Shown: positions 7,690 to 10,624 of the stretch, piece by piece
Layout of the letters: each line of letters begins with the position of its first letter
Numbering within the stretch: position 1 is the first letter of the stretch
Source: Bernardetiaceae bacterium
Lineage (GTDB): Bacteria; Bacteroidota; Bacteroidia; Cytophagales; Thermoflexibacteraceae
Length of the DNA: 64,000 bases
Reading direction: 5' to 3'
Assembly (NCBI GenBank): GCA_025056255.1
Contig: JANWVT010000002.1
Coordinates: 1 to 64,000 of the forward strand
Translations under genes and position numbers: made by a program
The notes under the pieces: model-generated
What the model was told of the DNA's origin: nothing
Databases searched by the model: none
What the model saw: only the letters and a program-made list of their open reading frames with translations

Positions 7690-7729
7690 CCCTTGATTTA
7701 TAATTTTTTGCAAAAAAAAAGCCAGTAAA

Positions 7730-7761
7730 TTTGGAATTGACAAAAGTAGTTTATTTATTTG
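7730..7761 (+). promoter_or_regulatory. Candidate promoter of the metY leader
   Basis: TTTG at 7730-7733 and TTG at 7737-7739 precede TATTTATTTG at 7752-7761, a near match to the Bacteroidota TTTG-N19-TAnnTTTG promoter, with the -7 half stretched by 2 nt. Transcription would start near 7768, before the riboswitch and including the possible anti-P1 strand at 7771-7778. Confidence 0.35.
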
Positions 7762-7785
7762 CAATATCAGTCAATTGCAAAAGCA

Positions 7786-7896
7786 GCAATTGATTTATAA
7801 AGAAAGGGGGAGAGATTAGGCTCTGTGAACCCTTAGCAACCTGAGCTATTCAAGGTGCTAATTCCTAACCCATAAAGGGAAATATAAATTGATTGC
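7786..7896 (+). promoter_or_regulatory. SAM riboswitch (SAM-I/S-box family)
   Basis: The conserved core is recognisable: gagattaggctctgtgaac, then cttaGCAACC, then AAGGTGCTAATTCC. The P1 helix is complete: 7786-7799 pairs with 7883-7896 over 14 bp with two G-U wobbles. The element lies upstream of metY and ends 4 nt before the ATG of a 50-codon leader ORF. SAM binding should stabilise P1 and so occupy the bases just upstream of that ATG, suggesting control of translation initiation rather than a terminator, since I find no U-tailed hairpin. An upstream segment can compete for the 5' P1 strand (see findings). Confidence 0.9.
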
Positions 7897-7900
7897 TATT

Positions 7901-8053
7901 ATGAACACACAAAACATTCTCATTGGTTTTTTAGCTGCATTTTTCCACACCTTTGGCACTTTAAGCTGCCGTTTTTCCACTTGTTCCTACACTTTGCTAA
8001 TTGCTCCAATGGCAAGCATATTGGCGCGAATGCGCTGTTGTTGCTGTTGTTAA
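7901..8053 (+). CDS. Poly-cysteine leader peptide upstream of metY
   Basis: This is a 50-codon ORF from ATG 7901 to TAA 8051-8053. It starts MNTQNILIGFLAAFF and ends MASILARMRCCCCC, with five consecutive Cys codons (TGT TGT TGC TGT TGT) directly before the stop; 7 of 50 residues are Cys. It begins 4 nt after the SAM riboswitch and ends 108 nt before metY. An internal ATG at 8009 would give only the last 14 residues. A Cys run at the end of a small ORF ahead of a sulfur-assimilation gene is what a ribosome-mediated cysteine sensor looks like; Cys-run upstream ORFs of this kind are known in mycobacteria. Regulation is inferred: no clear terminator/antiterminator pair is visible between 8053 and 8162. 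Confidence 0.75.
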   Translation: MNTQNILIGFLAAFFHTFGTLSCRFSTCSYTLLIAPMASILARMRCCCCC

Positions 8054-8086
8054 TTTGCTGACTACGTATTGCTTTTTCGCTGTTAG

Positions 8087-9484
<1,398 letters not shown>

Positions 9485-9574: not shown

Positions 9575-10624
9575 ATGAACACCCAATCACCCAGCTATAT
9601 TTTCAGATGGCAACATCCCTTTTCCTTGGAACAAGGTACTGTATTGCCTGAGCTGCAAATTGCTTACACTACCTTAGGAACACTTAACACGAATGCCGAT
9701 AATGTAGTGTGGGTATGCCATGCACTTACTGGAAATGCGGATGCAGCCAGTTGGTGGTCTGGTTTAATTGGTCAAGGATGCTTTTTTGACCCTAAGCAAT
9801 ACTTTATTGTTTGTGCCAATGTGATTGGTTCTTGCTATGGCAGCACGGGCCCGCTTACAGTGAATCCGCTGACTGGGAGCCATTACTATGCCGACTTCCC
9901 TGAAGTAACCATTCGCGACATGGTTCGTGCGCACGAGCTATTGCGCAAACACCTGAATATCAAAAAAATACATACTTGCATAGGAGGGTCTTTGGGCGGG
10001 CAACAAGCCTTAGAGTGGGCTATTATGAACCCTTCCCTCATTGAGCACTTGGTTATTATGGCATCCAACGCGCAACACTCTCCTTGGGGCATTGCCTTTA
10101 ACGAAGCCCAACGAATGGCTATCTACGCCGACCCTACTTGGTGCGAACCTCGCCCCGATGCTGGCTTAAATGGGCTAAAAGCTGCCCGAGCCATGGCTCT
10201 GCTTTCATATCGCAATTATGAAGCCTACCAGCTACGACAGCAAGAAACAAGCCATGATAAGCTAACCGGCTTTAAAGCTGCCAGTTATGTACAATATCAA
10301 GGAGAAAAGCTCACCAAGCGATTCAATGCCATTGCCTACGTGCGCTTGTCACAAGCCATGGACAGCCACAACATAGCACGCGGTCGTGGCGAGGTGCCCG
10401 AAGTGTTGGCAAGCATCTGCGCACAAACCTTAGTGATAGGTATCTCGTCCGATATACTATTCCCTACTATCGAGCAGAAACTCATTGCCCAACATATCCC
10501 CGGTGCTACTTATCAGGAAATTGACTCTGTTTTTGGGCATGATGGTTTTTTGGTAGAATATGAACAAATTGCAGCCGCATTAAAACTATTCTATCAATCA
10601 AATGCCCTGAGGGTAGCAGCTTAG
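9575..10624 (+). CDS. metX: Homoserine O-acetyltransferase
   Basis: The 349-aa alpha/beta hydrolase transfers acetyl from acetyl-CoA to homoserine, providing the MetY substrate. The nucleophile elbow is GGSLGGQQALEW (Ser). The oxyanion-region motif is CHALTGNADAASWW, and the catalytic Asp and His lie in ISSDILFPT and FGHDGFLVEY. I chose ATG 9575 (MNTQSPSYIF); an upstream in-frame start at 9524 would run through the hairpin region. It lies 90 bp after metY on the same strand, so the pair probably shares the SAM/Cys-controlled leader. Confidence 0.95.
   Translation: MNTQSPSYIFRWQHPFSLEQGTVLPELQIAYTTLGTLNTNADNVVWVCHALTGNADAASWWSGLIGQGCFFDPKQYFIVCANVIGSCYGSTGPLTVNPLTGSHYYADFPEVTIRDMVRAHELLRKHLNIKKIHTCIGGSLGGQQALEWAIMNPSLIEHLVIMASNAQHSPWGIAFNEAQRMAIYADPTWCEPRPDAGLNGLKAARAMALLSYRNYEAYQLRQQETSHDKLTGFKAASYVQYQGEKLTKRFNAIAYVRLSQAMDSHNIARGRGEVPEVLASICAQTLVIGISSDILFPTIEQKLIAQHIPGATYQEIDSVFGHDGFLVEYEQIAAALKLFYQSNALRVAA

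Follow-up and report, generated by a model that had tools for sequence, protein, structure and literature searches.

Polycysteine leaderless short ORFs of mycobacteria have reportedly been described by Canestrari and colleagues, in 2020, as cysteine-responsive attenuators. In the classical S-box riboswitch, the competitor of helix P1 is located in a downstream antiterminator. Leaders with a run of Cys codons near the stop codon precede cys operons in Mycobacterium and Propionibacterium, and cbs in Bifidobacterium; for the mycobacterial ones no conserved terminator hairpin was seen, as far as the available part of the source goes (PMC1262725). A review, likewise available in part only, presents the mycobacterial leaders as cysteine-responsive attenuators (PMC9031893). 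The statement of the preliminary description of the present locus, that Cys-run leaders are known in mycobacteria and other actinobacteria, is borne out by these partial sources. Other reports, each available in part, describe uORFC-8-2, found before cysS in Rhodobacterales with tandem Cys codons and a predicted ribosome-mediated attenuation (PMC8632094), the metA SAM-II riboswitch of Sinorhizobium meliloti, where an AUG, a terminator and a second AUG come in this order and which acts at a distance (PMC9373788), and Bacteroid-trp, one of the Bacteroidetes motifs listed (PMC2864571).

The locus reported here lies in the window, i. e. the whole stretch of 64,000 nucleotides that was analysed, and all its features are on the forward strand. 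A SAM-I (S-box) riboswitch aptamer at 7792..7890 belongs to RF00162, its sequence and structure scoring 75.1 bits for a curated gathering score of 44.4, and is the sole RF00162 match in its genome at E ≤ 0.001. Downstream, a leader ORF of 50 codons (7901..8053) runs from ATG at 7901 to TAA at 8051-8053, with a product ending ARMRCCCCC. Its five Cys codons (TGT TGT TGC TGT TGT, 8036..8050) stand directly 5′ of the stop and constitute the proposed stall site. A stretch without any structure better than shuffles (8054..8161) leads to metY, encoding O-acetylhomoserine sulfhydrylase (8162..9484; TIGR01326, 681 bits for a cut-off of 495), and further on to metX, of the homoserine O-acetyltransferase family (9575..10624), which is just above cut-off with NF001209 and below it with TIGR01392, and whose start codon at 9575 was picked by eye. 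Re-reading of the window confirmed the ORF, its length and its C-terminus as given in the preliminary description, and the matches to RF00162 and TIGR01326 confirmed its position between a SAM riboswitch and metY. The distance of 4 nt from the P1 helix to the ORF has to be corrected to 3 nt, as P1, once folded, ends at 7897. Three further species of the genus were read; their leaders have 5, 7 and 7 consecutive Cys codons, ending at the stop or two codons earlier. Four Cys codons followed by TRR occur 12 times in the genome of the window, and the backward pattern, used as a control, once; ten of these sites were read, of which eight overlie long ORFs in another frame or strand, one (L220) is in the own frame of an open stretch of 121 aa, and that of the window is the intergenic leader.

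The element thus presents the features of a polycysteine leader: a short ORF, consecutive Cys codons near its stop, and conservation among relatives. It shares with the mycobacterial and actinobacterial Cys leaders, as described in the available parts of the sources, a short upstream ORF with Cys codons near the stop, placed before sulfur genes. The mycobacterial type is leaderless and no riboswitch is mentioned in those parts, whereas the Bacteroidota ORF, in another phylum, starts behind a SAM-I aptamer. Because the ORF lies 3′ of the aptamer, and not at the mRNA 5′ end, the element lacks the leaderless feature and we do not assign it to the mycobacterial leaderless type; −7-like elements are situated up to 80 nt 5′ of the aptamer in 125 of 167 loci. 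Like known SAM-I riboswitches, it has an aptamer above the gathering score, upstream of methionine and sulfur genes; it differs in that its presumed output is the initiation of a leader peptide, and in that the competitor of P1, a hairpin named P0 below, lies upstream. Two signals are also read in one leader by tandem riboswitches, reportedly described as a Boolean gate, and by leaders of the mgtA type. We know of no case of a SAM-I riboswitch gating an amino-acid-sensing leader peptide. A literature search that did not cover subscription papers and preprints returned, among the matches listed, no case of a Cys leader combined with a SAM riboswitch, and within this scope the preliminary description, whose author knew of no such combination in Bacteroidota, was not contradicted. 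The alphaproteobacterial uORFC-8-2 differs by having two Cys codons, at positions 14-15, and a terminator, no SAM aptamer being mentioned in the available part of the report (PMC8632094). With the metA SAM-II riboswitch, AUG2 is in frame with AUG1, translation proceeds from AUG2, and the part available mentions no Cys run (PMC9373788).

RF00162 was then searched in 59 genomes, that of the window and its relatives, of which 45 gave a match (101 rows). Ninety of the 101 aptamers were read together with their downstream DNA, the seven lowest-scoring ones being omitted and four having no sequence. For 35 of these 90 aptamers, the downstream DNA contained a short ORF whose stop was preceded, directly or at a distance of up to three codons, by 3-7 Cys codons; 36 had been flagged originally, and one (L012), with a run at +420, was set aside as chance. 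According to the 5′ strand of P1, aptamers were of two kinds, TTTAT (n = 61) and CTTAT (n = 24), five fitting neither. Among the 61 TTTAT cases, 54 had an ORF 10-90 codons long with its start 4-16 nt 3′ of the aptamer; CCC was found among the last 12 residues of 33 of these 54 leaders, and at least two Cys among the last 10 residues of 42. Only 4 of the 24 CTTAT aptamers had such an ORF and none had the Cys run, which was present in 3 of the 5 aptamers fitting neither kind. When the 250 nt downstream were searched for at least three Cys codons lying no more than 3 codons from a stop, 32 of the 61 TTTAT aptamers were positive, compared to a mean of 0.28 in dinucleotide shuffles (maximum 3 in 100 rounds), 1 on the antisense strand and 0 on the upstream side. 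No leader ORF by the criteria used was seen behind 7 of the 61 TTTAT aptamers, and CCC was absent from the last 12 residues in 21 of the 54 leaders. We conclude that the ORF and the Cys run behind the SAM aptamer are real, and not produced by chance, and that a defined SAM-I subclass is recognisable by a P1 5′ strand TTTATA, by P0 and by an ORF at about +9. Aptamer kind was assigned by the P1 3′ end in the tests of P1 extension and of runs of other residues, and by the P1 5′ strand in those of chance, P0, partner swaps and the −7 element, which is why group sizes vary between tests. Among the seven low-scoring aptamers left out of the counts, G006:C34 has a Cys-run leader (L294). The second Bacteroidota aptamer kind, with P1 CTTATC/GATAAG (e. 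g. L029, L069, L085), has no Cys-run leader; some of its members precede ORFs which start, by eye, like metH.

Poly-Cys leaders might have been a general trait of these genomes, irrespective of riboswitches. Five Cys codons followed by a stop were found 24 times in 19 genomes, that of the window included; 22 matches were read, two having been dropped by a position filter, and 12 of the 22 were intergenic. A SAM core stood beside 11 of these 12, so this possibility was rejected. Over 41 genomes of family f26, the same scan gave 12 matches, 10 of them over long ORFs, and a SAM core in none. The single intergenic exception in the 19 genomes (L291, G015:C1 around 544308) is a stand-alone leader of six Cys codons and a stop with no Rfam match, and the ORF downstream begins, by eye, like a TonB-dependent receptor. 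Another locus, in family f26 (L318, G261:C21 around 173505), has 16 TGY codons before a stop without link to a SAM aptamer, and is probably a simple repeat.

The genes following Cys-run leaders were examined on a set of 148 loci, reduced to 144 after removal of four contigs duplicated between two collections; most tests were run on the 144, and the terminator test with the Cys run as 5′ arm on all 148. The first downstream gene was metY in 98 of the 144 cases, as judged from its N-terminal motif, another gene in 44, and was not found in 2. Family searches with single representatives placed above cut-offs CysH (PAPS/APS reductase) and a YfhL ferredoxin, and Pfam placed above cut-offs OsmC, RimK-like ATP-grasp, amino-acid permease and nitrite/sulfite reductase domains; additional genes were allotted to each group by their N-termini. 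Below NCBIfam cut-offs were MetX-like, O-succinylhomoserine-sulfhydrylase-like (a fragment), thioredoxin-reductase-like and SusC/RagA-like (a fragment) proteins, and the gene downstream of L158 had no Pfam match. Genes of sulfur amino acid metabolism, mostly metY and also cysH, metX-like and sulfite-reductase-like genes, are thus found downstream, as expected of a polycysteine leader. The preliminary description had made its case depend on conservation of the Cys run in related metY leaders; the run does recur there, and in leaders of other sulfur genes.

To estimate the taxonomic spread, one genome per species (84,980 species) was scanned for an aptamer core followed by TATAA, four Cys codons and a stop, and at least 120 loci were obtained. 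A covariance model made from 34 aptamers of relatives, which has only 14 base pairs and is therefore mostly a sequence model, detected the aptamer in 113 of the 120 listed loci. Seven of these 113 were checked with Rfam, six being at or above the gathering score and one (L096) below it. The aptamer was not found by either model in the seven remaining listed loci, labelled Clostridium, Bacillota MAG, Actinomycetota MAG, Cedecea, Bacteroides MAG, Marinigracilibium and Mucilaginibacter, which look like chance matches. An in-frame start was present 5-15 nt 3′ of the aptamer in all 113 listed loci (110 ATG, 3 GTG), for a search window of 4-20 nt; the pattern had selected for the Cys codons and the stop, and for neither start nor frame. 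According to record titles, Mucilaginibacter accounts for 53 of the 113. Other listed carriers are Pontibacter, Hymenobacter, Thermoflexibacter and further Cytophagales, Chitinophagales, Saprospiraceae, Sphingobacteriaceae and a few Flavobacteriales. In a sample of the phylum, RF00162 matched in 167 of 198 Bacteroidota genomes (that of the window included) and 69 of the 70 best-scoring loci were read, L232 being omitted. These best-scoring loci are mostly of the leader-less kind, with CCC in the last 12 residues in 2 of 69, both from family f23; they give no fair frequency, because rows were picked by their score with the Rfam model. We conclude that the Cys-run leader element is recurrent, and widespread within only part of Bacteroidota.

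Some individual loci deserve mention. The complete chromosome of the gammaproteobacterium Glaciecola amylolytica (CP034120.1, L121, locus 666-922 and downstream) has an aptamer exactly at the gathering score, a leader ending CCCCCC and a MetX-like gene downstream. This gene shares 79% identity with its counterpart in a Flavobacteriales MAG (L096), and the two leaders are similar; a horizontal transfer of the whole regulatory cassette into G. amylolytica is probable. A locus labelled Thalassobius (L176) comes from a MAG and may be mislabelled. In eight loci (L023, L025, L040, L046, L053, L055, L063 and L072), the RF00162 match stops early, with CATATAAAAA directly after the CCTG segment, which apparently leaves the aptamer without its last helix. 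The leader starts with GTG in seven of them, and with ATG in L072. The named Hymenobacter loci L116, L165 and L178 also use GTG, but with the usual longer spacing.

Within the leader peptide, conservation is concentrated at the end. In leaders of the TTTAT kind, 46.8% of the last 8 residues are Cys, versus 1.8% in the body, and for Met the shares are 6.2% and 1.8%. Runs of three or more of any other residue in the last 12 were limited to one MMM, one AAA and one LLL. The body was compared in Mucilaginibacter using 153 pairs of leaders of equal length and 72-98% identity, only 5 such pairs being available from other lineages. Differences amounted to 1017, 872 and 801 at codon positions 1, 2 and 3, about the same at all three, so that no purifying selection acting on the peptide body can be seen. 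The comparison of the run with the rest of the peptide, suggested in the preliminary description, therefore gives a recurrent run and, in Mucilaginibacter, a body devoid of third-position bias. An N-terminus MKSL recurs in the Mucilaginibacter group. A function of the peptide in trans was considered and is not supported, the body being without codon-position bias. The five residues before the terminal run contain 18.8% Met and 22.5% Cys, compared to 0.4% and 0.8% in the body, mostly in Mucilaginibacter. Ends with Met are CICMCCCC in Mucilaginibacter, and CCCMCCCC and CCMCCCC in other lineages. The leader may thus read Met supply as well, and in some lineages Met is probably sensed besides cysteine. 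Met codons within or before the Cys run are seen in several genera, e. g. in L110, L041, L105 and L182.

How could SAM act on such a leader? As folded, P1 of the window has 15 pairs, 7785-7799 (7785..7799, the 5′ strand) with 7883-7897, and is longer than in the Rfam model; the fold of 7765-7915 that contains it has an MFE z of −2.4. Upstream, 7769-7778 can pair with 7786-7795 into the P0 hairpin (7769..7795); folded alone, 7765-7799 reaches −11.2 kcal/mol (z −5.2), and none of 200 shuffles was as good. The alignment of the four species of the genus (L001, L014, L015, L019) contains P0 in all, with 7 to 9 extra pairs of P1. The alternation of P1 with another helix, a feature of RF00162, is therefore present by prediction, P0 and extended P1 sharing strand 7785-7799. 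In non-Mucilaginibacter loci, the extension of P1, in which DNA adjoining the aptamer on its 5′ side pairs with that separating aptamer and start codon, gave 3.17 pairs with its own partner and 2.26 with swapped ones (z 5.8, 0 of 2000 swaps, n = 102); z was 5.0 in the Mucilaginibacter group (n = 57) and 0.2 in the other aptamer kind (n = 25). The P0 score had a z of 10.1 in the TTTAT kind (n = 61, 33 of which reach 6 or more), 7.8 in named non-Mucilaginibacter loci (n = 50) and 2.4 among CTTAT aptamers (n = 24), and P0 is weak in Mucilaginibacter (z 2.1, n = 57). With swapped partners, P0 had a z of 10.6 and the P1 extension one of 7.1, a score of 6 for both being attained in 45 of 102 loci. 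All these z values overstate independence, because the sequences are related.

The 3′ strand of extended P1 and the following spacer (7883..7900) coincide, from the fold and from base use in 53 leaders, with the translation initiation region of the leader ORF. Leaders start 7-14 nt 3′ of the aptamer, 22 of 53 at 9 nt (search window 4-16 nt), and A is found at −12, −13 and −14 in 64, 74 and 81% of these 53, inside or adjoining the P1 3′ strand. Bacteroidota mRNAs lack Shine-Dalgarno sequences, and in Flavobacterium johnsoniae adenines at −3, −6, −12 and −13 together with an unstructured start region favour initiation, according to the available part of the report (PMC6847099). Given these preferences and the place of the P1 3′ strand, binding of SAM should shut leader initiation. 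SAM thus probably blocks leader translation, an inference from predicted structure made without SAM-binding or expression data. It supports the proposal of the preliminary description that SAM controls initiation on the leader through P1: the P1 extension covaries toward the start codon, a competing P0 lies upstream, and both are absent or weak in the other aptamer kind.

The position of putative promoters was also examined, with TAnnTTTG as what we take to be the Bacteroidota −7 consensus. Such an element was present within 90 nt upstream of the aptamer in 125 of 167 leader-kind loci (9.9 expected), and 118 of these 125 were 16-60 nt before the aptamer. In the other aptamer kind it was present in 17 of 28 loci (1.8 expected), 11 times within 10 nt. 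From these distances, there is room for a transcribed P0 mainly in the leader-bearing kind. The window has a −7-like element, TAAATTTG, at 7726-7733, 58 nt upstream of the aptamer, adjoined by ATTTGGAATT, which is kept in the alignment of the four species of the genus; the frequency of −7-like 8-mers in the window is at chance level.

We then asked how a stalled ribosome could act on the gene. In the window, the RNA behind the leader showed no fold superior to shuffles over 8030-8170 (z −0.01), and the terminator score was 8.9 for a shuffled mean of 6.7. The Mucilaginibacter group was aligned using 54 of 59 distinct sequences, five divergent ones being omitted (L104, L133, L151, L189, L207). 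Hairpin II, 3′ of the stop, joins ACACGU with ACGUGU: 90% of cells are paired, nine cells are changed on both sides, its covariation score was reached in none of 500 shuffles, its pairing is clearly above that of slid versions, and RNAalifold predicted its core unprompted. Two measures for hairpin II did not beat shuffles, namely pair changes on both sides (100 of 500) and further pair types (144 of 500). Counted from the stop, the 5′ arm of hairpin II is 6-12 nt away, a position close to that expected for the leading edge of a ribosome halted at the last Cys codons. In hairpin I (GUGUU with AACAC), the same ACAC pairs with the Cys codons instead, 4 or 5 of the 5 outer pairs being formed in 50 of 54 sequences. 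The 12 nt after the hairpin contain 60% T behind I versus 23% behind II, and mean energies are −7.9 kcal/mol for I and −8.4 for II, which is the more stable in 29 of 54. Hairpin I did not exceed shuffles, 358 of 500 reaching its pairing and 490 of 500 its covariation score. The lack of covariation may be ascribed to the Cys codons, which cannot vary, and would equally be expected if hairpin I were not real. On this model, hairpin I can be terminator-like in Mucilaginibacter, with II as the alternative formed when a ribosome occupies the Cys codons. Among the five divergent leaders, all except L151 have a CACG:CGTG stem behind the stop; some stem behind the stop was found in 54 of 59 sequences, versus 32.0 in shuffles, which is weak evidence.

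Over all lineages, terminator-like hairpins were only mildly enriched (score of at least 10 in 45 of 144 loci, 24.1 expected), and alignments of seven other gene and lineage groups showed no common fold behind the leader. Mutually exclusive hairpins of the trp/his type thus have a candidate in the Mucilaginibacter group, with covariation for hairpin II only, and were not found in the genome of the window. Three general mechanisms were discarded. A universal terminator with the Cys run as 5′ arm gave a mean z of 1.5 in 55 Mucilaginibacter-group loci and 0.65 in all 148, the observed score being reached by 49% of shuffles on average. A mechanism whereby the Cys codons would mask the metY start was not favoured, as this site was not preferred over 130 loci (mean rank fraction 0.71 in 55 loci and 0.62 in 75, for 0.5 at random); the window itself offers such a pairing, between the Cys run and CAACAAC immediately 5′ of the metY ATG (−9.4 kcal/mol). 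A pyrimidine bubble of the Rho type was not distinctive, with a C/G ratio of 1.32 behind the leader, yet 1.33 upstream of the aptamer.

We consider it likely that the element is a two-input leader RNA, in which SAM gates the start of the leader, the supply of Cys determines stalling of the ribosome, and the output is a sulfur gene. In the absence of SAM, P0 would hold the P1 5′ strand, leaving free the A/U-rich 3′ strand, which is the leader initiation region, so that the leader could be translated. In its presence, P1 would form, ending a few nt before the start codon, and leader translation would be blocked. When charged tRNA-Cys is scarce, ribosomes would pause at the terminal Cys codons, and a paused ribosome would prevent the repressive fold behind the stop, allowing expression of metY or another sulfur gene. 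In Mucilaginibacter, this fold may be the terminator-like hairpin whose 5′ arm is made of the Cys codons, and which the alternative hairpin would exclude. High output would thus be limited to conditions of low SAM and low Cys. The ORF, the run, the co-change of P0 and P1, the gene context and the covariation of hairpin II are established at the level of sequence comparison; SAM binding, stalling and the direction of control are inferred, as is, outside Mucilaginibacter, the form of the repressive element. That the Cys codons stall ribosomes under Cys scarcity is probable from the run, its place next to the stop and the sulfur genes behind it, in the absence of translation data.

The run could nevertheless sense something other than tRNA. 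The SAM switch might gate a leader whose poly-Cys nascent end responds to a metal, to sulfide or to an oxidant, as an arrest peptide does, and Cys runs of 3-9 residues located at the stop or close to it, as well as OsmC-like, ferredoxin and thioredoxin-reductase-like genes among the targets, would suit such a sensor. At the stop, however, much of the run is still inside the ribosome tunnel; it is interrupted in CICMCCCC and CCCMCCCC, or followed by a final Trp or Met, Met exceeds expectation before it (18.8% against 0.4% in the body, mostly in Mucilaginibacter), and metY represents 98 of the 144 targets. As the interruptions and the Met enrichment are better explained by the supply of sulfur amino acid codons, we regard redox or metal sensing as unlikely. 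Slightly less credible still is a leader used only for translational coupling or mRNA protection, with SAM setting its translation and the run sensing nothing. The body without codon-position bias, and leaders of the same class with few or no Cys, are compatible with it, but the run is precisely the recurrent part (CCC in 33 of 54, at least two Cys in 42 of 54), and named Cys-run carriers span several orders. Finally, we attach hardly any weight to the idea that a TG-rich repeat, or Leu codons (YTG) in a row in another frame, produced the poly-Cys frame fortuitously: TGY repeats over long ORFs of other frames do exist in these genomes, yet in all 113 listed loci the Cys frame has a start codon 5-15 nt past the aptamer, where start and frame were unselected, and the unselected set gave 32 of 61 against 0.28 by chance.

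We therefore retain the leader RNA gated by SAM and stalled by Cys scarcity; by its anatomy the element works like a riboswitch-gated Cys attenuator, a function deduced without ribosome, RNA or SAM-binding data. With somewhat less assurance, though still favouring it, we propose a widespread Bacteroidota AND gate, in which a P0/P1 SAM-I switch commands leader translation, and thereby a measurement of Cys (and Met), over much of the sulfur regulon (metY, metX, cysH, sulfite-reductase-like and permease genes), with an output at low SAM and low Cys, and one copy apparently moved to a gammaproteobacterium.

Metabolite riboswitches and amino-acid leader peptides are usually seen as alternative solutions; here they apparently stand in series. 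If this is true, the riboswitch decides whether a ribosome is present for the second measurement, and the element would account for sulfur control in many Bacteroidota, as well as provide a natural two-input RNA gate that is testable and reusable. The architecture suggests that, in these Bacteroidota, two sulfur signals are read serially by one RNA.
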